From: Hydrogenobacter sp.
GTDB taxonomy: Bacteria; Aquificota; Aquificia; Aquificales; Aquificaceae
Direction of reading: 5' to 3'
Assembly: GCA_041287335.1 (NCBI GenBank)
Contig: JBEULM010000023.1
Span: 1-36,914, forward strand
DNA: 36,914 nt
This document shows positions 1 to 22,790 of this stretch, in pieces (the stretch's first letter is position 1; each line of letters opens with the position of its first letter). The position numbers were made by a program, and so were the translations under genes. A model generated the notes under the pieces. The model searched no databases. It was given only the letters and a program-made list of their open reading frames with translations, and was not told where the DNA came from.

Positions 1-35
1 CATATATTACAGATGCAGATTATCTGTAATATATG
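1..35. repeat. Perfect 14-bp inverted repeat at the window edge
   Basis: Positions 1-14 and 22-35 are perfect reverse complements, separated by a 7-base loop. The arms are AT-rich (CATATATTACAGAT) and may continue left of the window. The stop codon of the leftward cytochrome gene (7-9) lies inside the left arm, so the dyad covers the last codons of that gene. It could be a terminator stem or the end of a small inserted element. There is no T-run that can be judged, because the window starts here. Confidence 0.7.
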
Positions 36-420
36 CAGGCGCAGGTTTTTGAGGTCTTGATGGATAATTCATGTAAATAGCCATCAAGGCTTTCTGCTCA
101 GATAAAGGAGCGTGACAATCCATACACTTATTCGCCGATAACTGGTCCATCATCTTCATTTGCCACAATAAACCTGAAGATATTGTTTTGGAGTGCAGGC
201 TCTGTTGCCATTCTGTATACTTTTCTGCATGGCAAGAACCGCATGCCTTCGGATCTAAAGATGCTTCTAATGCTGAATAAATTTTTGGGGGTTCACCGTT
301 AGGTCTTATAGGTCTTTCCCAGTATTTTTCCACTGTATCATACCTCTCCTTACAAGAAAAAAGAAAGGCAAGGGTAATGAAAATAACCCCTGCACACGAA
401 TTTTTTATTACCCACCGCAT
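7..420 (-). CDS. Diheme c-type cytochrome, possible lipoprotein, probably C-terminally short
   Basis: 137 residues. The N-terminus is hydrophobic and ends in a lipobox-like LFSC (Cys23), so export and lipid anchoring are likely. Two haem-binding motifs are visible: CGSCH at about residues 60-64 and CMDCH at 99-103. The stretch between them (SCHAEKYTEWQQSLHS) resembles the start of multihaem cytochromes of the cytochrome c-554/tetrathionate-reductase type, which normally carry more haems after this point. Here the reading frame ends soon after the second haem, inside a perfect inverted repeat, so truncation by insertion or frameshift is possible. The start overlaps the end of the upstream lipoprotein gene by 13 bases, which indicates one transcript and probably one electron-transfer function outside the inner membrane. 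Confidence 0.75.
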   Translation of the reverse strand: MRWVIKNSCAGVIFITLAFLFSCKERYDTVEKYWERPIRPNGEPPKIYSALEASLDPKACGSCHAEKYTEWQQSLHSKTISSGLLWQMKMMDQLSANKCMDCHAPLSEQKALMAIYMNYPSRPQKPAPAYITDNLHL

Positions 421-2171
421 GGCATAGGCAGTGTGCCACCACCTCCTCCGCCACCACCTGAAGGTGGAGGTGGTGTAGCACCCTTTGTAGGCATAAGCAT
501 GCTTTTTGTGGTCAAGGCTTGAGAGGCAGCTGGAACGGGTATGATATCCGAGATGCTCTTAGTAAAGGTGTCTATAACATAAATTATAGGGTTAGCTCTA
601 TCATTTATAAAGACCTTGCGCCCATCAGAGGTAAAAGTCATGACCGCTGAAGTGGTATTATAAACGAGATTTATCCTGTGGGAAACTGGGAAAGGAGGAT
701 TGCCATTTCCTGCAAAGCCCCTATAACTAACTACACCGACTTGACCATATCCAGGTGTTATGCCCACTATGTACACCTCGTCTCCTTTCACTACATTACC
801 GTTAGACTTTCGGACCACATTTACGGGTCTCATATCATCGGTGAAGGGTGCTATAGGTATTCCATCGGTTATATAAGAGGGTCCTGGGTCAGATGGATTT
901 ACTTTTTCTAAATAACCTGTGGATACAAATCCGGAAGCTTTTCGAAAAACATAGTTTACATTGTAAGTTTGCTGGTTTGCTATACCAGAAACCTTACCCG
1001 CTTGGTCATAGTTATAAGAGTATATGTACCTCACTTTAATTTGATAAATTTGTCCGTTTGTTAAGTCATCACTATCTATACTGTCAAGACATGAAAAACG
1101 GGGCACTATCATCTGTATGAGTCTTATATTGGAAAGATCTGTTACGTCCAGTATATATTCGTGTCCTCTGCATGGATCATTACCCATTGAAGTGTCAAGA
1201 TTTTCGGTAAAGTAGTAAGCGCGTCCATTATACATATTTATGGAAACGGTACCCATAAAATCACCAGGCATAATAGAGTTTTTCAAGAGGACAGGTAAAA
1301 GATATTGGTAAATTTTATCGTTATTTGTTATATCCAAACAGGTGACAGTACCTCCATACCAATCTGGTTCGCAGAAAATAACTTTACCATCATCCTTTAG
1401 GACAATAGAAGCATCGCATACTCCCGCTCTGCATGTATTTTGATTTATATCACATCTTCCAGCGGAGCCTTTTATACCTCTATTTCCACCTGCCACTGGA
1501 CCACCAGTAGGGATGTACAAAGTTTGATACGTTCTTATTACATTACCATTTGCATCTTTAACTTTTCCAGTAACTACATTTATACACCTTATAACTTTAC
1601 CAAAGTTTTGGGTTCCGAAAGCATTATCTAACACACATATTTCATCTTCTCCTCTTCTCGATGCGTAAACGTAACGCCCGTCCGGGGTCACATCAATGAA
1701 GGTAGTCTCAAGAGAAAAATTCTCTATTCCCTTCGCAATAGGTTGTGCAACCTGCAATGGAGTTAATAAATCTCTATTACCCGTATCTATGTGACAGGAA
1801 GGTTTATAAGTAGAAGTGCCTGTCATTAGAAGTTGCTGAGGACCAAACTGAGGATATCCAAAGGCTGATGTTATCAAGTCAAAATCGTCTGCTCTCACTG
1901 CATATACGTTTCTGCCGTTATTGAACCACATTACAGCACCAAGATCAAAATGATTATTTGTATACTCACCCCAAGCACCTACATTCTTGACCCCCACTAT
2001 CTCATCCGTTTTTGGGTCTATAACAGCAACTTCGTTGGAGACTAGGGAAGCCAACACAGCTTCGCTTTCTTGTTTTGAAGGAGAGGGAGTTGTAAGCTTA
2101 GTACCACTACTACCACAACCGAGGAACCACGACGCACACAAAATCATAATTATGAACCTTACTTTCCTCAT
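408..2171 (-). CDS. Large secreted lipoprotein with beta-propeller-like repeats
   Basis: I place the start at 2171 rather than at the longer frame opening at 2258. It has a strong ribosome binding site (GAGGAGGTGG) and begins directly with a lipoprotein signal peptide ending in FLGC. The mature protein is about 565 residues. Segments such as AVIDPKTDEIVGV, DVTPDGRYVYASRRG and FTSDGRKVFINDRANPIIY recur with the pattern of YVTN/NHL-type beta-propeller blades. Several Cys pairs suggest disulfides. The C-terminus is unusual: a run of four Pro and a run of eight Gly before the stop. The gene is first in a leftward operon with a diheme cytochrome and has its own sigma-54-type promoter. A role as a surface or periplasmic partner of the cytochrome is inferred; no enzymatic motif is visible. 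Confidence 0.75.
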   Translation of the reverse strand: MRKVRFIIMILCASWFLGCGSSGTKLTTPSPSKQESEAVLASLVSNEVAVIDPKTDEIVGVKNVGAWGEYTNNHFDLGAVMWFNNGRNVYAVRADDFDLITSAFGYPQFGPQQLLMTGTSTYKPSCHIDTGNRDLLTPLQVAQPIAKGIENFSLETTFIDVTPDGRYVYASRRGEDEICVLDNAFGTQNFGKVIRCINVVTGKVKDANGNVIRTYQTLYIPTGGPVAGGNRGIKGSAGRCDINQNTCRAGVCDASIVLKDDGKVIFCEPDWYGGTVTCLDITNNDKIYQYLLPVLLKNSIMPGDFMGTVSINMYNGRAYYFTENLDTSMGNDPCRGHEYILDVTDLSNIRLIQMIVPRFSCLDSIDSDDLTNGQIYQIKVRYIYSYNYDQAGKVSGIANQQTYNVNYVFRKASGFVSTGYLEKVNPSDPGPSYITDGIPIAPFTDDMRPVNVVRKSNGNVVKGDEVYIVGITPGYGQVGVVSYRGFAGNGNPPFPVSHRINLVYNTTSAVMTFTSDGRKVFINDRANPIIYVIDTFTKSISDIIPVPAASQALTTKSMLMPTKGATPPPPSGGGGGGGGTLPMPCGG

Positions 2172-2208
2172 CTTTTCCACCTCCTCAACGCTACCTGCTA
2201 TATTTTTA

Positions 2209-2224
2209 TGCAAATATAATGCCA
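2209..2224 (-). promoter_or_regulatory. Sigma-54 (-24/-12) promoter, leftward
   Basis: Read on the minus strand the sequence is TGGCATTATATTTGCA. It has GG at -24 (2223-2222) and GC at -12 (2211-2210) with the fixed spacing of the RpoN consensus TGGCAC-N5-TTGCA. Transcription would start near 2198, about 27 bases before the lipoprotein start codon at 2171. It is nearly identical to the rightward promoter at 2398-2413, including the flanking TTGGCAT and TTTGCATAA, which makes chance unlikely. Confidence 0.8.
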
Positions 2225-2285
2225 AAAAAAATACTCCTCCAGAAGGGAGACTGACCAACGCTTTTTATCTATAAACTTTAGGAAT

Positions 2286-2336
2286 ATGTTTCACAAAAGA
2301 AACATAAAAAATTTAAAGGTTAAAATCTTGAAACAT
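2286..2336. promoter_or_regulatory. Candidate enhancer (activator-binding) site between two sigma-54 promoters
   Basis: A perfect dyad ATGTTTC-N6-GAAACAT occupies 2286-2305, and a third half-site GAAACAT lies at 2330-2336. The dyad is about 120-140 bases upstream of the rightward start site and about 90-105 upstream of the leftward one. This is the usual distance for an NtrC-family enhancer-binding protein that must contact sigma-54 holoenzyme by DNA looping. One site could serve both directions. The activator gene is not in the window. Confidence 0.6.
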
Positions 2337-2397
2337 AAAATCGCAAAGAAAAAAGGATTTTTCAGATTTTCCTAAGCTAAAATGGTAAGTAATTTGT

Positions 2398-2413
2398 TGG
2401 CATACTGTTTGCA
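2398..2413 (+). promoter_or_regulatory. Sigma-54 (-24/-12) promoter, rightward
   Basis: The sequence TGGCATACTGTTTGCA has GG at 2399-2400 and GC at 2411-2412 in exact RpoN spacing. The expected start is near 2424, leaving a 5' leader of only about 13 bases that holds the AGGAGG ribosome binding site of the gene at 2437. It should drive the sulfur operon 2437-7226, whose genes follow with short gaps or overlaps. Confidence 0.85.
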
Positions 2414-2436
2414 TAATATACGATAGGAGGTGAATT

Positions 2437-2649
2437 ATGAAAAACGCTGTTCTCATCCTTTTCACTATTGCTGGTGTTGGATGTGGACAGGTAGTAGAAA
2501 CTAAAGCAAATATAAAGAGAGAGCTAAAAATCTCAATAAGTGGTGAACTACCAAAAGGAGCAAAGGGACCTGTTTGCGGATGTGGAGGTAAGGAAATAAA
2601 AGGTACAGATATGGAAAAAGCTCTAAACTCTCTTATTAAAAACAAGTAA
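2437..2649 (+). CDS. Small Cys-rich lipoprotein, first gene of the sulfur operon
   Basis: 70 residues with a signal peptide ending in the lipobox AGVGC (Cys at about 16) and a good ribosome binding site (AGGAGGTG). The mature part is about 54 residues and contains VCGCGG, a CxC pair at about residues 47-49 that could bind a metal, sulfur or persulfide. No family is recognised. Its position as first gene behind the sigma-54 promoter and before a triheme cytochrome suggests a periplasmic accessory role in the same process. The gap to the next gene is 14 bases. Confidence 0.65.
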   Translation: MKNAVLILFTIAGVGCGQVVETKANIKRELKISISGELPKGAKGPVCGCGGKEIKGTDMEKALNSLIKNK

Positions 2650-2663
2650 GAAGGAGGTGTATT

Positions 2664-3185
2664 ATGAGAAAAAAATTGCTGCTTTTGGTTGGTTTTGGTA
2701 GTTTAGTAACGCTTTGCGGGTTACTTGTAGGAAACTTTTTTAATAAGAACTCTTCTCGTTGGGGGTCCGAAGCTCTTGTAGAGAAAGAGCCCGTGAAATA
2801 CTTTTTGGAGCACCATATATTCATACCACTAGCAAATGCATGCGGATTAGGTGCAACCTCTTGTTTTAAATGCCACAATGGGCAAAGAGCGGAAGCGCCT
2901 GCTCCAAAACCCTGGCACACAGATCATACAAGAGTTAATTTCTCTTGCAACGGTTGTCATAAAGGTAATCCTAGACTTATCAAAAAGGAGCTCGCACACA
3001 CAAAAATGATTCCTAATCCCCTCACAGAACCCAGTGCTACATGCGCAAGCTGCCACATGGGTCAGAACATAGGTGAACTTGTAAAAAAATACGAAGCCGT
3101 GAAGAAGCAAAGCTTTAAGTCAGATATGGAGCTTTTAGGATTCTTGGCACATCATACACTTTTTCTTTCCAAGGGAGGTAAATGA
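2664..3185 (+). CDS. Membrane-anchored triheme c-type cytochrome
   Basis: 173 residues. An uncleaved or cleavable N-terminal hydrophobic segment (about residues 5-24) is followed by three haem-binding motifs: CFKCH (67-71), CNGCH (95-99) and CASCH (127-131). Extra His residues (HTDHTR, ELAHTK, LAHHTL) can serve as distal ligands. It is expected to carry electrons in the periplasm. It lies between the small lipoprotein and the outer-membrane porin, and its stop overlaps the earliest possible start of the porin gene. The ribosome binding site AAGGAGGTG is strong. The exact family is not clear; small multihaem cytochromes of NapC/NrfH or class III type are alternatives. Confidence 0.8.
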   Translation: MRKKLLLLVGFGSLVTLCGLLVGNFFNKNSSRWGSEALVEKEPVKYFLEHHIFIPLANACGLGATSCFKCHNGQRAEAPAPKPWHTDHTRVNFSCNGCHKGNPRLIKKELAHTKMIPNPLTEPSATCASCHMGQNIGELVKKYEAVKKQSFKSDMELLGFLAHHTLFLSKGGK

Positions 3186-3187
3186 TC

Positions 3188-4360
3188 ATGAAGAGGGTAA
3201 CTTTATTGATGGGGGTATCTAGTTTATTAAGTACTATGCCTGCTATTTCTGGACCAGTTATAACTTATGGAGAGCAGAGTTATGTACAGCTAAATTACTA
3301 TTTCCAACTATGGGGGCGGTACAGGAGCTTTAGGTATTCAAAAGATTCTGGTAGTTTATGGGACATTTTTTTTAGAAGAAATAGGCTTAACCTGAGTGGC
3401 CAGTATAATGATAGAATCGGTTTCTACTTTCAACTAGATGCGCCTTTTGAGGGTCAGGTTGACAAATTCACAGGAGAAAGAACACCATCAAAGGTGGATG
3501 TTTTAGATGCATATGTCACCATAGATCCCCTCCCAGAAAGCGATGCTGTTCACTTCATACTTGGAAAGTTTAAGCAAACCCTTACCAGAGAAAACCTTGA
3601 AGCATGTCTTGAACCTTTAAATATAGACAGAGGGGAAGTGTTACCGTATACTCCCTTCGGTCCGAGTAGGGATATCGGAGGTGCTGTGTGGGGTAACCTT
3701 TTTAATGGTAAGTTCCAGTATAGGCTTATGATTTCCAAAGGGAGAACAGAAAGTGTAACACCTAAAAGTTCCCTTAGATTTACCACAAGAGTGCATTTGA
3801 GTCTGTTTGATCCGGAAACTGACTATGGCTACAAGGGAACTTACTTGGGTACGAAAAAGGTTTTAACCTTTGGTGCAGGCTTTGATTATCAGCCTGATGT
3901 AGCCTACGCTAATTACCCTACTAGGTCTGAACCTAAGAATTACAAGGGATGGACCGTTGATGCCTTTCTTGAGTATCCTACATCTACTGGTGTATATACT
4001 CTCTCGGGAGCTTATATAAGGTACGATGTTGGAGATGCCATAAATAAGAATCCTGATCCAACACTACCTATATCGACACAACTGAAAGGATATTACATAA
4101 AGGGTGGATATCTTTATCCCAGAAAAATTGGTTTCGGTTTTCTACAACCTTTCTTCAGATATGAAAGGGATAATTACGGGTTAAAGAGCGGTTTATACAG
4201 CAACAAACAGTACAGTATAGGTTTTAACTATTACATTAACGGGCAGTCTCTCAAGGTAACTTTCCAAGCAGATAGAATAAAGTATGACAAAGAAGACCCT
4301 ACAAATTTCGCTTTACAAAACTATACGCAGTACACATTGGGCTTTCAAATGCTCTTTTAA
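3188..4360 (+). CDS. Outer-membrane beta-barrel porin
   Basis: The second in-frame ATG (3188) is chosen because GGAGG at 3174-3178 stands 9 bases before it but only 3 bases before the ATG at 3182. The product is 390 residues with a signal peptide ending near PAISG. The rest shows alternating hydrophobic/polar strands with many aromatic residues and the terminal Phe (GFQMLF) typical of outer-membrane proteins inserted by BamA. The N-terminal pattern LNYYFQLWGRYR...FFRRNRLNLSGQ resembles the phosphate-selective porin O/P group. Placed between a triheme cytochrome and an inner-membrane sulfur transporter, it is likely the outer-membrane entry route for the sulfur compound; the substrate itself is inferred. 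Confidence 0.8.
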   Translation: MKRVTLLMGVSSLLSTMPAISGPVITYGEQSYVQLNYYFQLWGRYRSFRYSKDSGSLWDIFFRRNRLNLSGQYNDRIGFYFQLDAPFEGQVDKFTGERTPSKVDVLDAYVTIDPLPESDAVHFILGKFKQTLTRENLEACLEPLNIDRGEVLPYTPFGPSRDIGGAVWGNLFNGKFQYRLMISKGRTESVTPKSSLRFTTRVHLSLFDPETDYGYKGTYLGTKKVLTFGAGFDYQPDVAYANYPTRSEPKNYKGWTVDAFLEYPTSTGVYTLSGAYIRYDVGDAINKNPDPTLPISTQLKGYYIKGGYLYPRKIGFGFLQPFFRYERDNYGLKSGLYSNKQYSIGFNYYINGQSLKVTFQADRIKYDKEDPTNFALQNYTQYTLGFQMLF

Positions 4361-4372
4361 AGGAGGTCTAAT

Positions 4373-5806
4373 ATGAAAGAGCTTACCTTACCACAGGCTC
4401 CTATGAAACACAGAACATACGCATGGCTGATAATTATTTTAGGTTTTCTGTTTTCCATAATAGCCATGTTCGTCGATATACGCTTTTCTTATATGGTTGC
4501 TTATTTCTGGGCTGGTGTGGTGTATGGTCTGTTCCTACAATACGGACACTTCTGCATGGCATCTGCCACAAGGGACCTTTTTGCTATAGGGACCACACGA
4601 GTAGCCGTAGGTATACTAATAGCTATAACCCTTTACGGTTTTACCTCCCTTATAGACAGACTTATTGGTATAGCTCCCTTCCATGCGAATCCTATAGGCA
4701 TACATACTCTCATTGGAGGGCTCATATTTGGCATTGGGATATCTTTCGCAGGAGGTTGTTCTTCGGGGTCTTTGTATAAAAGTGGGGAAGGTAACATCGC
4801 AGCTATGATAGTAGTAACAAGCGTAGCTATTGCACAGGCACTTTTTGTCTCTACGTTGAAGTTTCCCCTCGTACCTTATCTAGTACCAGAATCTTGGGTA
4901 AAGGCGGCTAATCAGCAGGTAGATATGGGTATACCTAAAGAGTTTATATCTTCTTGGTACGATTACTTTTTGACGGGTTACGCATGGAATCTAAAAGGGC
5001 TCAGCGGTGCAGATCTCATACCTTCTGATAATACCCTCTTGAGAGAAGTCATTGGCAACTTTTTACTTGGAGTTATAGTCCCCACATTGTTCTTTCTCAT
5101 AGTCACCTACTCGTTCTTTTTTAGAAAGAGGTTTTTACGTAATGTTAAAGATGTTCGCTTCGTGCTTACAGACATAAAGGGCTTGATAGCTATGATAACT
5201 GACTCAAAGAGAACAGCTCTTGCAGGTTTGGGTTTAGGAATAGCCTCAGGTTTGCATATGTGGGTACTTGGACTTTTAAGAGAAAGGTTTGGTATAGACA
5301 ATTTCGGTGAGCTTCTGCAACAGATGGGTTTTACAAGCGGTTTAACTATACAAGGAACAGCTTTTGACCCGGGCTATTGGTACATAACTACACAGGAGGC
5401 TCAGTGGATGGCATGGACTATCCAAAAGATATTCAGGGTTGACTTATACCACAACATTTTCTTTGGTGTAGAAAACGGTATACTTAATCCTTTGATAAAT
5501 GCAGCAGACCTGATGATCATTGGTATCATTTTAGGTGCAGCCTTTATGGCTCTTCGTAGAGGAGAGTTCAAATGGCGCAAACCTACCGGTGAGCAGATAG
5601 TCTTTGCTCTGATAGGTGGTACCTTTATGGGTGTAGGAGCAAGATTAGCTCTAGGATGCAACATAGGAGCCCTTTTTGTACCTGCCGCAAATGGAGATTA
5701 CAGTGGATGGCTTTTTTTCGTAGCTATGGGTGCTGGTGCTTACTTAGGTGTAAAGATCACTACATGGTGGATAAACAGAAGGGTACAAAAGGAGTTTGAA
5801 TTTTAA
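4373..5806 (+). CDS. YeeE/YedE-family sulfur (thiosulfate) transporter, TsuA-like
   Basis: 477 residues and about ten or more membrane segments. The family's conserved Cys-centred motifs are present: GHFCMASATRD (Cys61), AGGCSSGSLYKSGEGN (Cys129) and, near the C-terminus, ALGCNIGALFVPAANGDYSG (Cys about 429). In TsuA such cysteines pass thiosulfate across the inner membrane. The gene is followed after 17 bases by a TusA-like carrier, the usual partner of this family. It has a good ribosome binding site (AAAGGAGG). Uptake of thiosulfate or a related sulfur species is the expected function; the substrate cannot be read from sequence. Confidence 0.9.
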   Translation: MKELTLPQAPMKHRTYAWLIIILGFLFSIIAMFVDIRFSYMVAYFWAGVVYGLFLQYGHFCMASATRDLFAIGTTRVAVGILIAITLYGFTSLIDRLIGIAPFHANPIGIHTLIGGLIFGIGISFAGGCSSGSLYKSGEGNIAAMIVVTSVAIAQALFVSTLKFPLVPYLVPESWVKAANQQVDMGIPKEFISSWYDYFLTGYAWNLKGLSGADLIPSDNTLLREVIGNFLLGVIVPTLFFLIVTYSFFFRKRFLRNVKDVRFVLTDIKGLIAMITDSKRTALAGLGLGIASGLHMWVLGLLRERFGIDNFGELLQQMGFTSGLTIQGTAFDPGYWYITTQEAQWMAWTIQKIFRVDLYHNIFFGVENGILNPLINAADLMIIGIILGAAFMALRRGEFKWRKPTGEQIVFALIGGTFMGVGARLALGCNIGALFVPAANGDYSGWLFFVAMGAGAYLGVKITTWWINRRVQKEFEF

Positions 5807-5823
5807 AGAAAGGAGGTAATAAC

Positions 5824-6075
5824 ATGGCTGTAAAGTTTGAAAAGCTTTCCGATGATAAGTATTTTCTAGATGTGAGGGGGTATGTTTGCCCCCACCCTCA
5901 GATGTATACAAAAAAGGCGATGGAAAAAATGCCAAAAGAAGCAGCCTTAGAAGTTGTGCTTGATAATCCGTCATCATGTGAAAGTATATTTGATCTTTGT
6001 AAGATAGAGGGTTATAGAATAATTGACTACAAAGAGGAAGGTGGCGTATTTCACTTTTTGCTTCGTAAGGAGTGA
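5824..6075 (+). CDS. tusA: TusA-family sulfur carrier protein
   Basis: 83 residues, the normal size of TusA/SirA proteins. The signature LDVRGYVCPHPQMYTKKAM carries the persulfide-forming Cys22 in a CPxP motif, which is the only invariant functional residue of the family. The protein accepts sulfane sulfur and passes it to cytoplasmic partners. Coupling to the YeeE/YedE transporter upstream and to DsrE-like proteins downstream matches sulfur-trafficking clusters of sulfur oxidisers. A second Cys pair (SSCESIFDLC) is less usual. Strong ribosome binding site AAAGGAGG. The symbol denotes family only. Confidence 0.88.
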   Translation: MAVKFEKLSDDKYFLDVRGYVCPHPQMYTKKAMEKMPKEAALEVVLDNPSSCESIFDLCKIEGYRIIDYKEEGGVFHFLLRKE

Positions 6076-6079
6076 AAGT

Positions 6080-6388
6080 ATGAAGTGGCATCTAATACTC
6101 ACTGATGAAAAAAGCTTTGAACTCGCTGTGTGTATAATCTCGAAGCTAAAAAATGATAAAAAGAACAATGTATCTGTCTTTCTGACTGGTAGAGGTGTAC
6201 TACTTGTAAATAACAGTAAATTTCTTTCCCTACTCAAGAAACTGGACAGATGCGTAGCTTGTGAGTTTTCTTTGGAAAAGTATGGTATAGAAAAGCGATC
6301 CGAACTTATAAAATACAATATAGACATTGGTGGACAGTTCCAAAATGCTGAGCTTGTGTCAATATCAAATGCATGTATATGTATATAA
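6080..6388 (+). CDS. DsrE-like small sulfurtransferase-type protein
   Basis: Start placed at 6080 (MKWHLILTDEK) behind AAGGAGTG; a longer upstream frame overlaps tusA and has no such site. 102 residues with the alpha/beta layout of DsrE/TusD proteins: an opening strand, a helix AVCIISKLK, the strand VSVFLTGRGVLLV, then a Cys-containing stretch CVACEFSLEKYGI and the C-terminal NACICI. In DsrE proteins a Cys in this second half accepts sulfur from or donates it to TusA. The match is by pattern and neighbourhood only, so DsrE-like is a family guess. Confidence 0.65.
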   Translation: MKWHLILTDEKSFELAVCIISKLKNDKKNNVSVFLTGRGVLLVNNSKFLSLLKKLDRCVACEFSLEKYGIEKRSELIKYNIDIGGQFQNAELVSISNACICI

Positions 6389-6397
6389 GGATGTATC

Positions 6398-6655
6398 ATG
6401 AGGAAGAACATTCTTGTAATAGCTATAAAAGATAAAGTAGAGGCGTTAAGAGTAGCAAACGGTCTATCTATACTACACGAAGTTAAGGTTATTGCTATTA
6501 ATGGTTTAAATAGGGACGAACCTAAGATCACAGAGCAGTTGGAAGCAATGGAATTTGCTGAGATACCCTTCCTGGAAGTCTATACAGATGACGGAGATTA
6601 TGGGAAATTTATTGGCGATTTAATTTTGCAATCAGAGGAGGTATTCATTATATGA
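6398..6655 (+). CDS. Small alpha/beta protein, possible DsrF/DsrH-like
   Basis: 85 residues without Cys. The opening ILVIAIKDKVEALRVANGLSILHEVKVIAING alternates strand and helix like a DsrE/DsrF fold, but the catalytic Cys is missing. It may be a structural subunit that pairs with the DsrE-like protein just upstream, as DsrE, F and H form mixed complexes. It overlaps the next gene by 4 bases (ATGA), so the three small genes are translationally coupled. Function is not proven by the sequence. Confidence 0.55.
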   Translation: MRKNILVIAIKDKVEALRVANGLSILHEVKVIAINGLNRDEPKITEQLEAMEFAEIPFLEVYTDDGDYGKFIGDLILQSEEVFII

Positions 6656-6834
6656 AAAATGTCAAGGAACTTTTGATAATCTATGAAAATGAGAAGGCTA
6701 AAGAATGGTTTAACCCAGTAATAGAGTACTTAAGTAGGTATATCAATATCACCGAAACGTTTGAGTGTCGTAACTTGAAGAGGAAATATAAAGTTATCTA
6801 TGTGAAATCAAGTAAAGAGGAGGTCAAGCTATGA
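6652..6834 (+). CDS. Small hypothetical protein in the sulfur operon
   Basis: 60 residues, 4-base overlaps at both ends (ATGA at 6652 and at 6831), so it is firmly inside the operon. It begins with a strand-like ELLIIYENEKAKEWF and is rich in Lys. There is one Cys (FECRNLK). No family recognised. Given its neighbours it may be a small partner of the DsrE-like proteins. Confidence 0.5.
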   Translation: MKNVKELLIIYENEKAKEWFNPVIEYLSRYINITETFECRNLKRKYKVIYVKSSKEEVKL

Positions 6835-7226
6835 AAGAAGTAGTCGTTCTGATACTGATTGTAGTGAGTTCTATAGTTTGGTCTCAACCTATGCTTCAAT
6901 CTCAAAAACAGCTTGCTGTCTTTAAAGAAAATGGATGCGCTAACTGTCACAACATACACAAGGTATCTGAATTTACGGATTATGGGAAGTGGGCTAGGGA
7001 TAGGGGATACGGTTGTATAAACTTACTCTCACTTATAAAGTTACACAATATAAAAGGTCCAGCCTTAGAAAGAGCTAAAGAAGTTTTTGTACAAAACAAG
7101 TGTTCCGTTTGCCACGAAGTAAGTGGTAAAGGTGTAGGCAAAGAAAATCTTACTTCTTATGGTGTGAAAATAAAAAGGGAACAGCTTGGCTGCACTGCTC
7201 TTTATAAGGCGCTTTTAAAGGAATGA
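6831..7226 (+). CDS. Periplasmic diheme c-type cytochrome
   Basis: 131 residues. A signal peptide (about 1-18, ending VWSQ) is followed by two haem sites: CANCH (36-40) and CSVCH (91-95). The two halves both have the pattern aromatic/basic-x-CxxCH and Cys later (GYGCINLL, QLGCTALY), suggesting an internal duplication of a monohaem unit, each with an extra Cys. It is the last gene of the sulfur operon and the probable electron acceptor or shuttle. It ends 15 bases before gspE, which starts an unrelated set. Confidence 0.8.
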   Translation: MKEVVVLILIVVSSIVWSQPMLQSQKQLAVFKENGCANCHNIHKVSEFTDYGKWARDRGYGCINLLSLIKLHNIKGPALERAKEVFVQNKCSVCHEVSGKGVGKENLTSYGVKIKREQLGCTALYKALLKE

Positions 7227-7241
7227 GTTAAAATTAAGGTT

Positions 7242-8654
7242 ATGGACTTTATAAAAACATACAGGCTAATACCTGTGGAGGAAGGAGAGAGTTATATAAA
7301 ACTGCTCGCTCCTAAAGGGTACGATCCTTTTGCGGTTGAGGAGATAAGGTTTCTTACCGGAAAATATGTAGAAGTTTTTCAAGTAGATGAAGAGGAATTT
7401 TCAAGAGAGTTACAAAAGAGACTGGCAGAGGAAGAAGTTTATGTAGAAGAAAATGAGGAGGAGGATAGAAATTCAAAGGACATACTCATGGAAGAGGAAA
7501 AGAGTCCAGCGGTTAGTCTGGTAAACGCTACCCTTATAAAGGCTGTGACTCTATCCGCTTCCGACGTACATATAGAGCCTTACGAAGATTCTGCGCTGAT
7601 AAGATTTCGCCTTGACGGTATACTTCATGATTACGTGAGTATTCCCTTATCTCTTCACGAATCTGTAGTTTCGCGTATAAAGGTGCTTGCCAATCTCAAT
7701 GTAGCCGAAAGGCGTATACCTCAGGACGGCAAAATAAGAGTGAGGATAGGAAAGAGAGATATGGATATAAGGGTTTCTATAGTACCCACCACTTTTGGAG
7801 AAAGGGTGGTGCTTAGGCTCCTCGACCGTTCTGGGAGCATGCTCACTCTTGAAGAGCTTGGGCTTTCAGATCATCATCTTGAGAAGATAAAGAGGCTTGC
7901 AAAAAAACCTTACGGCATAGTGCTGGCAACCGGACCAACAGGTGCGGGGAAAAGTACTACACTTTACGCCATGATCCTTTACGTGAAAAGCCCAGAAAAG
8001 AACATAATAACTATAGAAGATCCACCTGAGTATCAGGTGAAAGGAGTCAGCCAGATACAGGTAAATCCCAAAGTGGGGCTTACCTTTGCAAACGGGCTGA
8101 GAGCCATCCTAAGGCAGGATCCTGACATAATTATGGTAGGAGAGATAAGGGATACGGAAACCGCACAGATAGCTGTCCATGCTGCACTTACCGGTCACCT
8201 CGTACTTTCCACCCTTCACACCAACGACGCACCTTCAGCTGTCACGAGACTTTCGGACCTTGGAATAGAACCTTTCCTTATAGCTTCATCTTTGGAGGGT
8301 GTCATAGCACAAAGGCTTGTGAGAAAAGTGTGTGAGTACTGCAAAGAACCTTATCTGCCTACAAAGGAGGAACTTTCGGAACTCGGACTTTATGGGAATT
8401 ACACCTTTTACAGAGGTAAAGGGTGTGATATGTGTATGGGTACGGGCTATAGAGGAAGAACAGGTATTTACGAAGTTTTGGAACTTGACGAGGATCTAAA
8501 ACAACTTCTTATAAAAACACAGGATGCTAACGATATAAGGAAGCTTGCAAGGGAGCGCGGTTTTAAAACCATGTACGAAGATGGGCTTGAAAAGGTCACG
8601 AAGGGCATCACTACACCTGAGGAACTCATAAGAGCCGTAAAAGTGGAGGAATGA
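7242..8654 (+). CDS. gspE: Type II secretion ATPase GspE
   Basis: 470 residues. A short N-terminal domain is followed by the GspE/PilB core: Walker A GPTGAGKST (231-239), the Asp box ITIEDPPEYQ, Walker B-type IIMVGEIRDTETA and the His box LTGHLVLSTLHTND. The Zn-binding tetracysteine loop is present (CEYCKEPY ... CDMC). The enzyme drives pseudopilus assembly at the inner membrane. It overlaps gspL by 4 bases. There is no clear Shine-Dalgarno; a TAAAAT box ends 7 bases before the ATG, so a very short or absent leader is possible. PilB is the alternative name, but the GspL/M/K genes that follow favour GspE. Confidence 0.92.
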   Translation: MDFIKTYRLIPVEEGESYIKLLAPKGYDPFAVEEIRFLTGKYVEVFQVDEEEFSRELQKRLAEEEVYVEENEEEDRNSKDILMEEEKSPAVSLVNATLIKAVTLSASDVHIEPYEDSALIRFRLDGILHDYVSIPLSLHESVVSRIKVLANLNVAERRIPQDGKIRVRIGKRDMDIRVSIVPTTFGERVVLRLLDRSGSMLTLEELGLSDHHLEKIKRLAKKPYGIVLATGPTGAGKSTTLYAMILYVKSPEKNIITIEDPPEYQVKGVSQIQVNPKVGLTFANGLRAILRQDPDIIMVGEIRDTETAQIAVHAALTGHLVLSTLHTNDAPSAVTRLSDLGIEPFLIASSLEGVIAQRLVRKVCEYCKEPYLPTKEELSELGLYGNYTFYRGKGCDMCMGTGYRGRTGIYEVLELDEDLKQLLIKTQDANDIRKLARERGFKTMYEDGLEKVTKGITTPEELIRAVKVEE

Positions 8655-9802
8655 TATACACAGGCATTGACGGTAAAAAGATCCTTAGCGTTGAGCATTC
8701 ACCTCTAAGAAAAGTATGGAAAATTACAAAAAAGATGGGGAGGAGAATATGCGTTATCCCATCCGATTTGTGTTTTGTTAGGGTAGAACCCTCTTTCTCA
8801 AAAAGGATAAGTGAGGTAAAAAGCTTTTACGCCCTTGATGTGGAACAAAGATATGGGAAAGTGAGCTGGGATGTATCTATGTATGGTGATCAGGTTTTTC
8901 TCGGTGTGTATAGAGGAGGCTTTTCCAAAGACTGTGAGAATGTTGAGCTTGAGATCTTCGCTCTCGCTCGCGCACTGTCCCTTTTGTATAAGGATGGCTA
9001 TCTGCTGGATATGGGAAGGAGAAAAACTACACTTATAAGGTGTGAAAAAGGACTGCTCAAAAGTTACCGGGTAATTCTCAAAGGAGGGGACTACATTAAT
9101 CTTCTAATATCACAAAAAAGAGGTATAGAGCTTAGCAAAGCCGAAGAGTTAAAAATAAAGGAGGGCTTGGAGCTTGAGGAGGCATTACACGGTGTAAAAG
9201 ACATTCTCTCATCGCTCGGTATAAACCAAGATAGCGAGCCACTCTTATTAAGTGGAGGTGCTTCCTCAATAAAGGGCTTGAAAGAGCTACTTCCAAAGGC
9301 TGAAAAAAACCCTTACTGTGATCCAGACCTTACATCGGCTCTTGGAGCGAGTCTTAAGTTTGTTCTCAAAAATCCCTATCCTGACTTTGTCCAGAGAGAA
9401 CTTTCCCAAAGAGATCTGAAGATAGCGGGGATAACTGTAGGAGCTGCAGCATTCTTATTCGTTACATCTTATGCTCTCACAGGATCGCTTTGGTCATCAG
9501 AAAAGTTGAGGGATATACAAAGGGAAGAGTTCAAGAGAATCTTTCCAGGAACGCCAATAGTTTCCATCTACGATCAGGTAAGGTCAAGGGTTTCGACGGA
9601 AGAGCCTTACGAACTTACCAAAAAGTTTACCGAACTTTCAAGAAGACTCAGGCAGGATGTGAAGATATACTCCATAGAATTTTCCGAAGGCACTTTGACA
9701 ATAAAGGGGGAAGGAAAAGAAGATGTAGTTAGCCAAATGAATCCCAAAAGGGTAAAAAGGACACCCACAGGAAATGTAGAGTTTGAACTGGAGATAAAAT
9801 GA
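8651..9802 (+). CDS. gspL: Type II secretion assembly protein GspL
   Basis: 383 residues. The first about 250 residues form an actin-like (PilM-type) cytoplasmic domain, with LLLSGGASSIKGLKELL as the phosphate-binding-like turn. One membrane segment follows (IAGITVGAAAFLFVTSYAL, about 257-276), then a periplasmic part with RIFPGTPIVSIYDQVRSRV, a pattern usual in GspL before its ferredoxin-like domain. It links GspE to the membrane platform through GspM. It overlaps gspE and gspM by 4 bases each. Confidence 0.8.
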   Translation: MIYTGIDGKKILSVEHSPLRKVWKITKKMGRRICVIPSDLCFVRVEPSFSKRISEVKSFYALDVEQRYGKVSWDVSMYGDQVFLGVYRGGFSKDCENVELEIFALARALSLLYKDGYLLDMGRRKTTLIRCEKGLLKSYRVILKGGDYINLLISQKRGIELSKAEELKIKEGLELEEALHGVKDILSSLGINQDSEPLLLSGGASSIKGLKELLPKAEKNPYCDPDLTSALGASLKFVLKNPYPDFVQRELSQRDLKIAGITVGAAAFLFVTSYALTGSLWSSEKLRDIQREEFKRIFPGTPIVSIYDQVRSRVSTEEPYELTKKFTELSRRLRQDVKIYSIEFSEGTLTIKGEGKEDVVSQMNPKRVKRTPTGNVEFELEIK

Positions 9803-10203: not shown

Positions 10204-11054
10204 TAGTGCTCGTTTTACTTGTGTTTTTCATCTCCGCAGTGTATTATGTTGTTGATGTTTATTCAAGTGTCAGGTCTGCGGATCTCACAGTGGAACAGAT
10301 TTACTTTAAAGAGCAAGCATACAATGTTTTTATTTCAGCTTTACCGCTGGTTATTGAGATGCTTAAAAGCGATGATCCTTCGGTTGATAGCCTTCAAGAC
10401 AGATGGGCATATCCGCTGACATTCAATACCTCAAAAGGGGAGCTTTACATAAATATATACGATGAAGATAGATTCCTCAACCTGAACTATGTGGATACAG
10501 GAGCTTATGGAAATTTCTTTGAAAGACTCCTGAGATTGCTAAACATTGATCCATCATACAAAGATAATCTTCTGGCATGGGAGGGCAAAATCAACAAAAG
10601 CATAGAGACTGACTATCCAATAAAGAGGGGACTCTTAGACTCAAAAGAGGAATTAAGGTGGGCTGGATTTAAAAAGGATGACCTTCTTGGTAAAACGATA
10701 GGTGGGGAGTTCTATCCTGGGCTTTTGAGCGTGATAACTGTTTACTCTTCAGGTAAAATAAATATAAACACCGCAAACATTTATGTACTTATGGCTCTGG
10801 ACCCAAGAATAGATCGGGTTTTGGCAAGTAAGATTATAGACAGAAGAAGTAGAGAACCCTTTAAAAAAGTAGAAGATTTGCTTCTTGTGGATGGCTTTAC
10901 TTTTGACATTCTATACGCTATAAAGAATTTAGTTGATGTGAAAAGTAGATACTTTCACATAGTTATGGACTTAAAATCAGGTGGAAAACTTGCAAGCTTT
11001 GAGGTTATATATGACAGGCAAAGTGATGGGATCGTTTACAAAAAGATACTCTGA
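10200..11054 (+). CDS. gspK: Type II secretion minor pseudopilin GspK
   Basis: 284 residues. The N-terminal hydrophobic stretch (IVLVLLVFFISAVYYVVDVY) is pilin-like, though the usual prepilin Gly/Phe junction is not seen before it, as the protein starts directly with MIVL. The strand pair GELYINIYDEDRFLNLN and the helix-hairpin-helix-like SGKININTANIYVLMALDPRID...REPFKKVEDLL are characteristic of GspK, which caps the pseudopilus tip. It overlaps gspM by 4 bases, and the next gene starts inside its 3' end. Confidence 0.78.
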   Translation: MIVLVLLVFFISAVYYVVDVYSSVRSADLTVEQIYFKEQAYNVFISALPLVIEMLKSDDPSVDSLQDRWAYPLTFNTSKGELYINIYDEDRFLNLNYVDTGAYGNFFERLLRLLNIDPSYKDNLLAWEGKINKSIETDYPIKRGLLDSKEELRWAGFKKDDLLGKTIGGEFYPGLLSVITVYSSGKININTANIYVLMALDPRIDRVLASKIIDRRSREPFKKVEDLLLVDGFTFDILYAIKNLVDVKSRYFHIVMDLKSGGKLASFEVIYDRQSDGIVYKKIL

Positions 11055-11514
11055 AATTCTGCTTTACTTACTTTTGATAACAAATATAGTTTTACACAAA
11101 GCGTTTGCTTTACCGGATTTTTCTACCTTTGTGTTGCTCTCCCCTCTCCTACTCATGGAAGACTCTTACAGATGGAAAAACCCGTGGAATATCTTCGCTA
11201 TTACTTATCCAGCATGTTTCTCCTTAGGTATTTATCCTTATGATCTTCTAAGCCTCACGCTGTCAGCCTTTGCTGAAGAGATCTTTTTCAGAGCTTATAT
11301 GATGCGAAAATATGGGAATTTTACTGTATCTTTGATGTTCGCCTTACCTCACTTTTTGATATATCAAAATCTTCAATCCCTTCTCACTTTTTTTCCGTCT
11401 TTATTTTTCGGTTTCCTGTATAAAAAAACCAATTCTTTAATATTTGTAAGCCTAATACACCTTTACTCTAATCTCGTCTATAGAAACTTTACATTTCTTC
11501 ATCTTTGGATATAA
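11011..11514 (+). CDS. CPBP-family (CAAX-like) intramembrane protease
   Basis: I use the ATG at 11011 behind GAGGT; a GTG at 10981 and an ATG at 11026 are other options. About 167 residues with several membrane segments. The family motifs are visible: AEEIFFRAYMM (EExxxR, catalytic Glu), FALPHFLIY (FxxxH) and SLIHLYSN (HxxxN). Such proteins cleave within the membrane or process peptides. The gene overlaps gspK by 44 bases and may be cotranscribed with the secretion genes, where it could process a pseudopilin or substrate; that link is speculative. Confidence 0.75.
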   Translation: MTGKVMGSFTKRYSEILLYLLLITNIVLHKAFALPDFSTFVLLSPLLLMEDSYRWKNPWNIFAITYPACFSLGIYPYDLLSLTLSAFAEEIFFRAYMMRKYGNFTVSLMFALPHFLIYQNLQSLLTFFPSLFFGFLYKKTNSLIFVSLIHLYSNLVYRNFTFLHLWI

Positions 11515-11620: not shown

Positions 11621-12637
11621 ATGAAGAGGTTTTTGTTGCTTAATATTTCACTGCTTCTTGCAGGAAGCGTATTTTCAAAAAATGACCCAGATAAGGAGCT
11701 TTTAGATAAAGCCAGACAGTTCTTTTCTCCCCTACCAAAAAGCTTTCCATCAAAGGAAAATCCAATAACTCCGCAGAAGGTAGAGCTCGGAAGACTCCTA
11801 TTTTTTGAAAGGAGACTATCTGTAAATGATATGATAAGTTGTTCTACGTGTCATGCTATAGAATACTACTATTCTTCACCTGCTCCCAAGCAGATGGGTG
11901 CGCTAAAACTTCAACCCAGACATGCTCCTACAGTGCTAAATTCGGCAGGACAATTTGTTCAACACTGGATCGGTAATAGGAAAGATGTAGAGGATCAGGC
12001 ATTGCAGTCTTTGACAGGACCTCCCGCTCTTGGAAATCCATCCAAAGAGAGTGTGGAAGAAAAGCTCAAAAGCATACCTCAGTATGTAGAACTCTTCAAG
12101 AAAGCTTTTCCCAAAGACAAAGAGCCTATAACTGCCGAAAATATAGCCAAGGCGATAGGAGCTTTTGAAAGGACGTTGGTTACTCCGTCAAGGTTTGACG
12201 AATTCCTAAAGGGGGATACTAAAGCTCTCACACAAGAAGAAAAAAGGGGACTCAAGACTTTCATAGAGGTTGGCTGTGTTGCATGTCATAACGGTAGTCT
12301 CGTGGGCGGAACCATGTATCAAAAGTTTGGTATTTACGAGCCATACTGGAAATACACAAAGAGTGAGAGCATAGATGAGGGTAGATATGCGGTCACAAAG
12401 AAAGAGGAAGATAAATACGTCTTTAAAGTACCACCGCTGAGAAACGTTGCAATGACGCCTCCCTACTTCCATGATGGATCAGTAAAGACCCTGGAAGAAG
12501 CTGTCTGGATAATGGGAAAGGTCCAACTCGGCAAAGACCTCAGTAAGGAACAAGTTAAAGACATAGTTGCCTTTTTGAGGAGCTTGACAGGTGATATACC
12601 AAAAGAGGCAAGAAAACCACCTATTTTACCTCCATGA
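11621..12637 (+). CDS. Diheme cytochrome c peroxidase (MauG/CcpA family)
   Basis: 338 residues with a signal peptide (about 1-19). Two haem sites: CSTCH (74-78) in the N-terminal, peroxidatic half and CVACH (about 220-224) in the electron-accepting half. The family landmarks KVELGRLLFFERRLS, RHAPTVLNSA, VPPLRNVAMTPPYFHDGS (axial Met region) and DIVAFLRSLTG are all present. The enzyme reduces hydrogen peroxide in the periplasm with electrons from a small cytochrome. Ribosome binding site GAGGAGGTG. It stands alone between tRNA-Gly and accC. Confidence 0.92.
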   Translation: MKRFLLLNISLLLAGSVFSKNDPDKELLDKARQFFSPLPKSFPSKENPITPQKVELGRLLFFERRLSVNDMISCSTCHAIEYYYSSPAPKQMGALKLQPRHAPTVLNSAGQFVQHWIGNRKDVEDQALQSLTGPPALGNPSKESVEEKLKSIPQYVELFKKAFPKDKEPITAENIAKAIGAFERTLVTPSRFDEFLKGDTKALTQEEKRGLKTFIEVGCVACHNGSLVGGTMYQKFGIYEPYWKYTKSESIDEGRYAVTKKEEDKYVFKVPPLRNVAMTPPYFHDGSVKTLEEAVWIMGKVQLGKDLSKEQVKDIVAFLRSLTGDIPKEARKPPILPP

Positions 12638-22314: not shown

Positions 22315-22790
22315 ATGGCAGGCAAAAAGAAGGGTAAAGTAGCCTACGGTGATAACCTTTATGAAATTCATGGCTCATACTGGCTAATATTTACCCATCA
22401 TGACAAGACCTACACAGAAAGGATTGGAAGGGTCAAAGACCTGCCCCTCACTATGGCAAGGAATATAGCAGTAAAGAGAAAGGCAGAGATAATTGAAGGC
22501 ACTTATTTACCTAAGAAAGAGGAAAACCTGACCTTTGAGGAGCTTGCTAAGGAATATTTAAGCTGGTATAAATCCACACGCCCGCAGGTGAGGAAAAGAA
22601 CCCTTTACGATTTGGAAAAGAGGATTGACAGGCTTGTGGGCTACTTTGGAGGTATGCAGGTTCACCAGATAAGCACCTTACAAGGCACAAATCCACCGCT
22701 ATGCTAAAGAGGTATGCCCACCTAAGCCCTGAGCATTTCAGAAAGGCTTTGGAAAGGCTTGGCAAGTTTATGGAAGAAGGCAGTAAGTAG
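22315..22790 (+). pseudogene. Tyrosine integrase with its catalytic core deleted
   Basis: The first about 120 residues (from 22315) give an intact arm-binding and core-binding region (YEIHGSYWLIFTHHDKTY ... LTFEELAKEYLSWYKST ... DRLVGYFGGMQVHQIST). Near 22680 the frame shifts. A second frame from about 22680 to 22790 encodes the last about 37 residues of the same family: RHKSTAMLKRYAHLSPEH, with the catalytic His region and the Tyr nucleophile in RYAHLSP. Roughly 130-150 residues between them, including the catalytic Arg-Lys-HxxR part, are missing. The gene is therefore an internal deletion with frame change, not a simple truncation. It adjoins the right attachment repeat, as integrases usually do. 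Confidence 0.85.

Follow-up and report, generated by a model that had tools for sequence, protein, structure and literature searches.

Do two operons that diverge from one short gap in a Hydrogenobacter genome answer to a single activator, and what would that activator switch on? The question is raised by a stretch of 36,914 nucleotides (contig JBEULM010000023.1, here called the window), near the start of which 265 bp separate the start codon of a minus-strand operon at 2171 from that of a plus-strand operon at 2437. We analysed the gap, the genes on both sides and the contig that appears to continue the left operon. The features concerned are collected in Table 1.

Table 1. Features of the divergent locus, in window coordinates unless marked L049.
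Feature	Position	Strand	Remarks
Pentaheme ExtKL-like cytochrome lipoprotein, 5' part, cut at contig end	7-420	minus	complete on contig C27 (L049:346-1551)
Beta-propeller lipoprotein, 587 aa, first left-operon gene	408-2171	minus	YVTN repeat 35 bits, cut-off 27.85
Left-operon -24/-12 (sigma-54) element TGGCATTATATTTGCA	2224-2209	minus	exact TGGCAYN5TTGCW match; predicted start 2198; ATG 2171
Candidate enhancer dyad 1, ATGTTTC-N6-GAAACAT, perfect	2286-2305		centre 2295.5; -97.5 from left start, -128.5 from right start
Candidate enhancer dyad 2, AGGTTAA-AATCTT-GAAACAT, degenerate	2317-2336		centre 2326.5; -128.5 from left start, -97.5 from right start
Right-operon -24/-12 (sigma-54) element TGGCATACTGTTTGCA	2398-2413	plus	exact TGGCAYN5TTGCW match; predicted start 2424; ATG 2437
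Small lipoprotein, 70 aa, first right-operon gene	2437-2649	plus	no family match
Triheme c-type cytochrome	2664-3185	plus	PF14522 26.3 bits; 3 CXXCH
Outer-membrane porin, ExtI family (selenite/tellurite reduction operon porin)	3182-4360	plus	NF040900 342.7 bits, cut-off 150; assigned to ExtI
YeeE/YedE-type (Sulf_transp) inner-membrane transporter	4373-5806	plus	PF04143 152.7 bits
TusA/YedF-like sulfur(selenium)-carrier protein	5824-6075	plus	PF01206 77.3 bits; below specific NCBIfam cut-offs
Two small proteins, first weakly DsrE-like	6086-6655	plus	PF02635 18.4 bits, below cut-off of 22.7
Diheme c-type cytochrome, last insertion gene	6831-7226	plus	15 bp before T2SS ATPase gene

Sigma-54 promoter elements in the gap

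The gap carries exact TGGCAT-N5-TTGCA elements, one per strand. Searching the whole 1.67-Mb genome with the strict sigma-54 pattern TGGCAYN5TTGCW, we found 11 sites, versus 0 for the same pattern reversed. Among the remaining sites are those at the starts of NifH-like and PII (GlnB)-like genes (named from their translated starts), and most lie ~40-60 bp upstream of a start codon; the pattern is therefore a good sigma-54 marker in this genome. Both gap elements sit 39-53 bp from their start codons, as at nifH and glnB. We took as a sigma-54 promoter a -24/-12 element TGGCAY-N5-TTGCW upstream of a gene in a genome that encodes rpoN and activators, and this is what was found on both strands. Transcripts from such promoters are expected to start ~12 bases past the GC of the -12 element. 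The rpoN gene is intact; an apparent stop pair was dismissed as an interruption, as the open frame continues through the RpoN box (ARRTVAKYR), in which it ends. Nine genes for NtrC-type ATPases match PF00158 strongly, and one of them lies inside the same insertion as the two operons (see below).

Conceivably, the elements could be decayed or match by chance, with transcription coming from sigma-70 promoters instead. Sigma-70-like matches do overlap the region, but at 27 versus 22.5 in shuffles (window 1-9000) they are about as many as expected, whereas among 20,000 Markov sequences of gap composition the strict sigma-54 pattern appeared on any strand in 0.05% and on both strands in none. Given also the distances to the start codons, we regard transcription from sigma-70 promoters as highly implausible.

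Paired dyads between the promoters

The perfect dyad 1 was rejected as stand-alone evidence, because inverted repeats with perfect 8-bp arms arose by chance in 15% of the simulated AT-rich gaps (5% if a third half-site was required as well). The third GAAACAT half-site in the gap (2330-2336) is part of dyad 2, which has 3 mismatches in 14 positions and a poor left arm (4/7). With 0 or 1 mismatches, ATGTTTC-N6-GAAACAT is present as a single copy in the genome; no GAAACAT dyad elsewhere in the genome has fewer than two mismatches, and two-mismatch matches were fewer than those of the reversed control.

The two dyads mirror exactly about the promoter midpoint. Their centres have their midpoint at 2311.0, where the midpoints of the promoter pair and of the predicted starts also fall, so that each start has sites at -97.5 and -128.5. 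The centres are 31 bp apart, that is, three helical turns, and the NtrC sites at E. coli glnA have a similar spacing. The frequency of dyads with up to three mismatches is 1.4e-4 per position in simulated sequence, and nine were counted in 105 kb besides the perfect copy, which makes it unlikely that dyad 2 landed at the mirror position by chance, in a symmetry test that was chosen after the pattern was seen. Dyads located ~80-150 bp upstream of the start and helically phased, which is how we defined an enhancer pair, are thus present, dyad 2 in degenerate form.

The same geometry bears on the idea that the two sigma-54 promoters are independent, with separate activator sites, and that the dyad is a chance AT-rich repeat or a repressor site. 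This would agree with the frequency of chance repeats in the simulations, but it leaves the mirror placement about the promoter midpoint and the helical spacing to coincidence. Moreover, other sigma-54 promoters of the genome, e.g. that of glnB, have similarly placed palindromes (77-126 bp upstream of the -24 element) with other sequences, as would fit different activators, though short palindromes are common by chance. We consider independent promoters improbable. The gap, judged from its letters, is best read as two divergent sigma-54 promoters that share an enhancer. In an earlier note on this DNA, a -24/-12 element on each strand and the perfect dyad between them had been pointed out; both elements proved to be exact consensus matches of a pattern that separates cleanly from its control, the dyad is present, and the start positions proposed there are the same as ours. 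The note had missed dyad 2.

Palindromes of other kinds were seen elsewhere in the genome. Two sigma-54 promoters, on contigs C64 (L050, near 2560-2730) and C37 (L060, near 1775-1890), have a common GTTGCAAC-type palindrome (GTTGCAACACTGTTGCAAC and TGCAACGACCGTTGCA) 78-91 bp upstream of the -24 element, which suggests another small regulon with one activator. On contig C63, a sigma-54 element (L062, 1899) precedes a gene with a twin-arginine-like signal, and a 16-bp palindrome, TGGCAAAGCTTTGCCA, is located 88 bp upstream of its -24 element.

Gene content of the two operons

The porin of the right operon is an ExtI above the family cut-off, the only one among 136 Aquificota genomes (1/136), and plasmids gave distant matches only (29.5% in Methylosinus). 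The YeeE/YedE-type transporter stays below the NCBIfam cut-offs for YedE/FdhT (NF033796, 138.1 bits, cut-off 350) and TsuA. To the left, the propeller lipoprotein had no match among plasmids and no orthologue in the 135 other Aquificota genomes (1/136), for which reason there were no orthologous gaps for comparison. The pentaheme cytochrome, complete on contig C27 (401 aa, five CXXCH), is closest to ExtKL, itself a pentaheme protein (PMC6148476), but falls far below the cut-off (NF040886, 65.9 bits, cut-off 250) and is called ExtKL-like here. Two scans of genome contigs, one for the YeeE-type transporter and one for the pentaheme cytochrome, revealed no orthologous locus, only one distant Chloroflexota MAG. 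No rhodanese-like ExtH was detected among the gene products examined, and ExtMNOPQ were not found here.

From their predicted products, the two operons appear to encode components of a single Ext-like envelope redox system, in which case their co-regulation would be expected and not odd. In ext-type clusters the surface lipoprotein is often exchanged (PMC6148476), and by analogy the propeller lipoprotein may be the counterpart of this exchangeable component. Geobacter sulfurreducens reduces selenite and tellurite less well when ExtI is lost (PMC5877670). What crosses the envelope through the machine encoded here is probably electrons, chalcogen oxyanions (selenite, tellurite or an oxyanion of sulfur) or both. 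By gene content, the locus is an Ext-like island and not merely a sulfur-uptake operon. The label 'sulfur uptake', given to the right operon earlier, does capture the YeeE/TusA-type genes, but it is incomplete in view of the ExtI porin and the triheme cytochrome.

Probable contig join and regulatory genes

Window positions 1-35 form a perfect fold-back palindrome, catatattacagat-gcagatt-atctgtaatatatg, and the apparent stop of the 137-aa open reading frame at 7-420 is an artefact of this contig-end fold-back. Contig C27 (L049; 7,853 bp) dovetails with the window, its positions 1-756 matching window 761-10 with 95.5% identity over 756 bp, and a join of the two is strongly suggested. The two contigs differ in the overlap mainly at third codon positions (10 of 17 differences within the cytochrome part), as is expected of real strain variants, and C27 carries a 1-base frameshift in the propeller end. 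C27 and the window may thus stem from slightly different variants, by strain mixture or by partial duplication at the join; both the limited identity and the frameshift count against our best explanation of the locus. We also considered that C27 might represent another complete left operon, but rejected this as the principal explanation: no other contig carries a second propeller 5' half, and the gene order of a related genome (G004, below) puts C27 beside the window.

On C27, the cytochrome gene is followed by a membrane histidine kinase gene, which overlaps its 3' end and is the last gene of the left operon. Facing the kinase gene, and outside the activated operons, is a gene for an NtrC-type response regulator with receiver (PF00072), AAA+ (PF00158) and Fis-type HTH (PF02954) domains. 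Its loop reads GSFTGA instead of the canonical GAFTGA, which also counts against the best explanation. A sigma-70-like promoter upstream of the regulator gene is at about chance level.

Insertion between sensor and T2SS genes

In the complete genome G004, from the same genus, genes for a roadblock protein, an MglA-like protein, a 390-aa protein and a Tll0287-like protein run straight into T2SS ATPase, PilM and onward, with ~8 bp between the Tll0287-like and T2SS ATPase genes. Here, these two genes are separated by ~11 kb, from the response regulator through the diheme cytochrome (window 7226), comprising the two divergent operons, the NtrC-type response regulator and the membrane histidine kinase. 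Because the flanking genes are contiguous in G004, we place C27 adjacent to the window and read the intervening genes as an insertion. GC3 is 0.23-0.38 in the island genes (histidine kinase 0.28, response regulator 0.30, propeller 0.32) versus 0.40-0.47 in the flanks, and acquisition appears likelier than loss elsewhere as the direction of change. Among three other genomes of the genus, the flanks lie apart in two, the C27-side 390-aa gene was not found in the third, and the stretches examined held none of the island genes. Given the short distance between the last island gene and the T2SS ATPase gene, where no plus-strand terminator-like site was found, read-through from the island into the T2SS/pilus-type assembly operon is possible.

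The C27 flank (L049 4524-7650, minus strand) encodes the roadblock protein, an MglA-like GTPase, the 390-aa protein and a Tll0287-HAMP sensor with one CXXCH. As these genes directly precede T2SS ATPase/PilM in G004, they may belong to a signalling-to-pilus operon, which the island would have split here. Further along the window, a MauG/MbnH-like diheme enzyme gene (11621-12637) lies near genes for an Rce1/myxosortase-like protease (10981-11514) and a T2SSK-like protein, and a 130-aa fragment (22315-22707) matches the N-terminal SAM-like domain of phage integrases.

Proposed mechanism

The promoters might depend on sigma-54 and the enhancer still be worked by another activator of the genome, either a global one or an unrelated NtrC-type protein, instead of the island regulator. 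Of the nine strong PF00158 matches, others than the island regulator could bind here. Yet the dyad is unique in the genome, which would leave such an activator without another obvious target, the palindromes at other sigma-54 promoters are different ones, and regulator and kinase arrived with the operons in one insertion. We judge control by another activator to be unlikely. It appears likely to us, on the other hand, that the shared sigma-54 enhancer drives an Ext-like module which was acquired laterally and regulates itself. The earlier proposal that one NtrC-type activator governs both operons stands as the best reading, with an intact rpoN and one of the activator genes within the insertion.

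Taking linkage, domains, promoter elements and geometry together, we infer the following circuit. The response regulator would be made from its own sigma-70-like promoter and phosphorylated by the island kinase. In this form it would bind the tandem dyads and loop to sigma-54 RNA polymerase on either side, switching on the propeller lipoprotein, pentaheme cytochrome and kinase to the left, and the lipoprotein, triheme cytochrome, ExtI porin, YeeE transporter and TusA to the right. With the kinase gene at the end of the left operon, induction would reinforce itself. Only tentatively do we offer the fuller picture of a transferable, self-contained module, which would combine a two-component sigma-54 switch, a mirror-symmetric shared enhancer, an Ext-like selenite/tellurite/sulfur-oxyanion system and kinase positive feedback, would have been inserted as one block and would have placed a T2SS/pilus-type operon downstream of a sigma-54 promoter.

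If control by the island regulator is true, regulation would be portable with the machine, as the sigma-54 two-component control shares one insertion with the porin. Mutating one short DNA segment should then silence the whole system, and there would be a direct route to finding its signal and substrate.

Comparison with known systems

ZraR controls the divergent sigma-54 promoters of zraSR and zraP (PMC4987338). Like the locus described here, ZraSR/ZraP of Salmonella and E. coli combines an NtrC-type two-component system with divergent sigma-54 promoters in one intergenic region and has its own kinase in the regulon (PMC4987338). However, that system serves a zinc-binding chaperone and has zraS and zraR in a single operon, whereas here two redox/porin operons are served and the regulator gene lies apart from them, opposite the kinase gene. 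At the hyc/hyp intergenic region, FhlA likewise serves divergent operons of one machine as a single sigma-54 activator, but it senses formate, is not a phosphorylated response regulator, and its cargo is a hydrogenase. With these two precedents, the earlier view that the wiring was not known as described does not hold.

Regarding sulfur chemistry, TspS-TspR/sox-II of Acidithiobacillus caldus shares with our locus a sigma-54 two-component control of periplasmic sulfur chemistry and an upstream inverted repeat, TGTCCCAAATGGGACA (PMC6335251). It differs in that there is one sox cluster with tspS-tspR upstream, and no porin or Ext components are described (PMC6335251). The extHIJKL(MNOPQS) cluster of Geobacter resembles the island in its ExtI porin, pentaheme cytochrome and surface lipoproteins; here, rhodanese ExtH and ExtMNOPQ were not found, and the genes form two divergent operons with YeeE and TusA. 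Most extHIJKL-type clusters have a LysR regulator upstream on the opposite strand (PMC6148476). In the literature searched, which covered few subscription papers, we found no report of an ExtI operon under sigma-54 control, nor any of ExtI in Aquificota. Ext-type conduits have been described in Geobacter-related bacteria, and here an ExtI porin is encoded by a deep-branching thermophilic hydrogen oxidiser. The class of wiring is known from ZraSR/ZraP and FhlA, its use for an Ext-like island appears to be new, and the exact mirror placement of the dyads makes the gap a clean natural experiment on whether two sigma-54 promoters share an enhancer.
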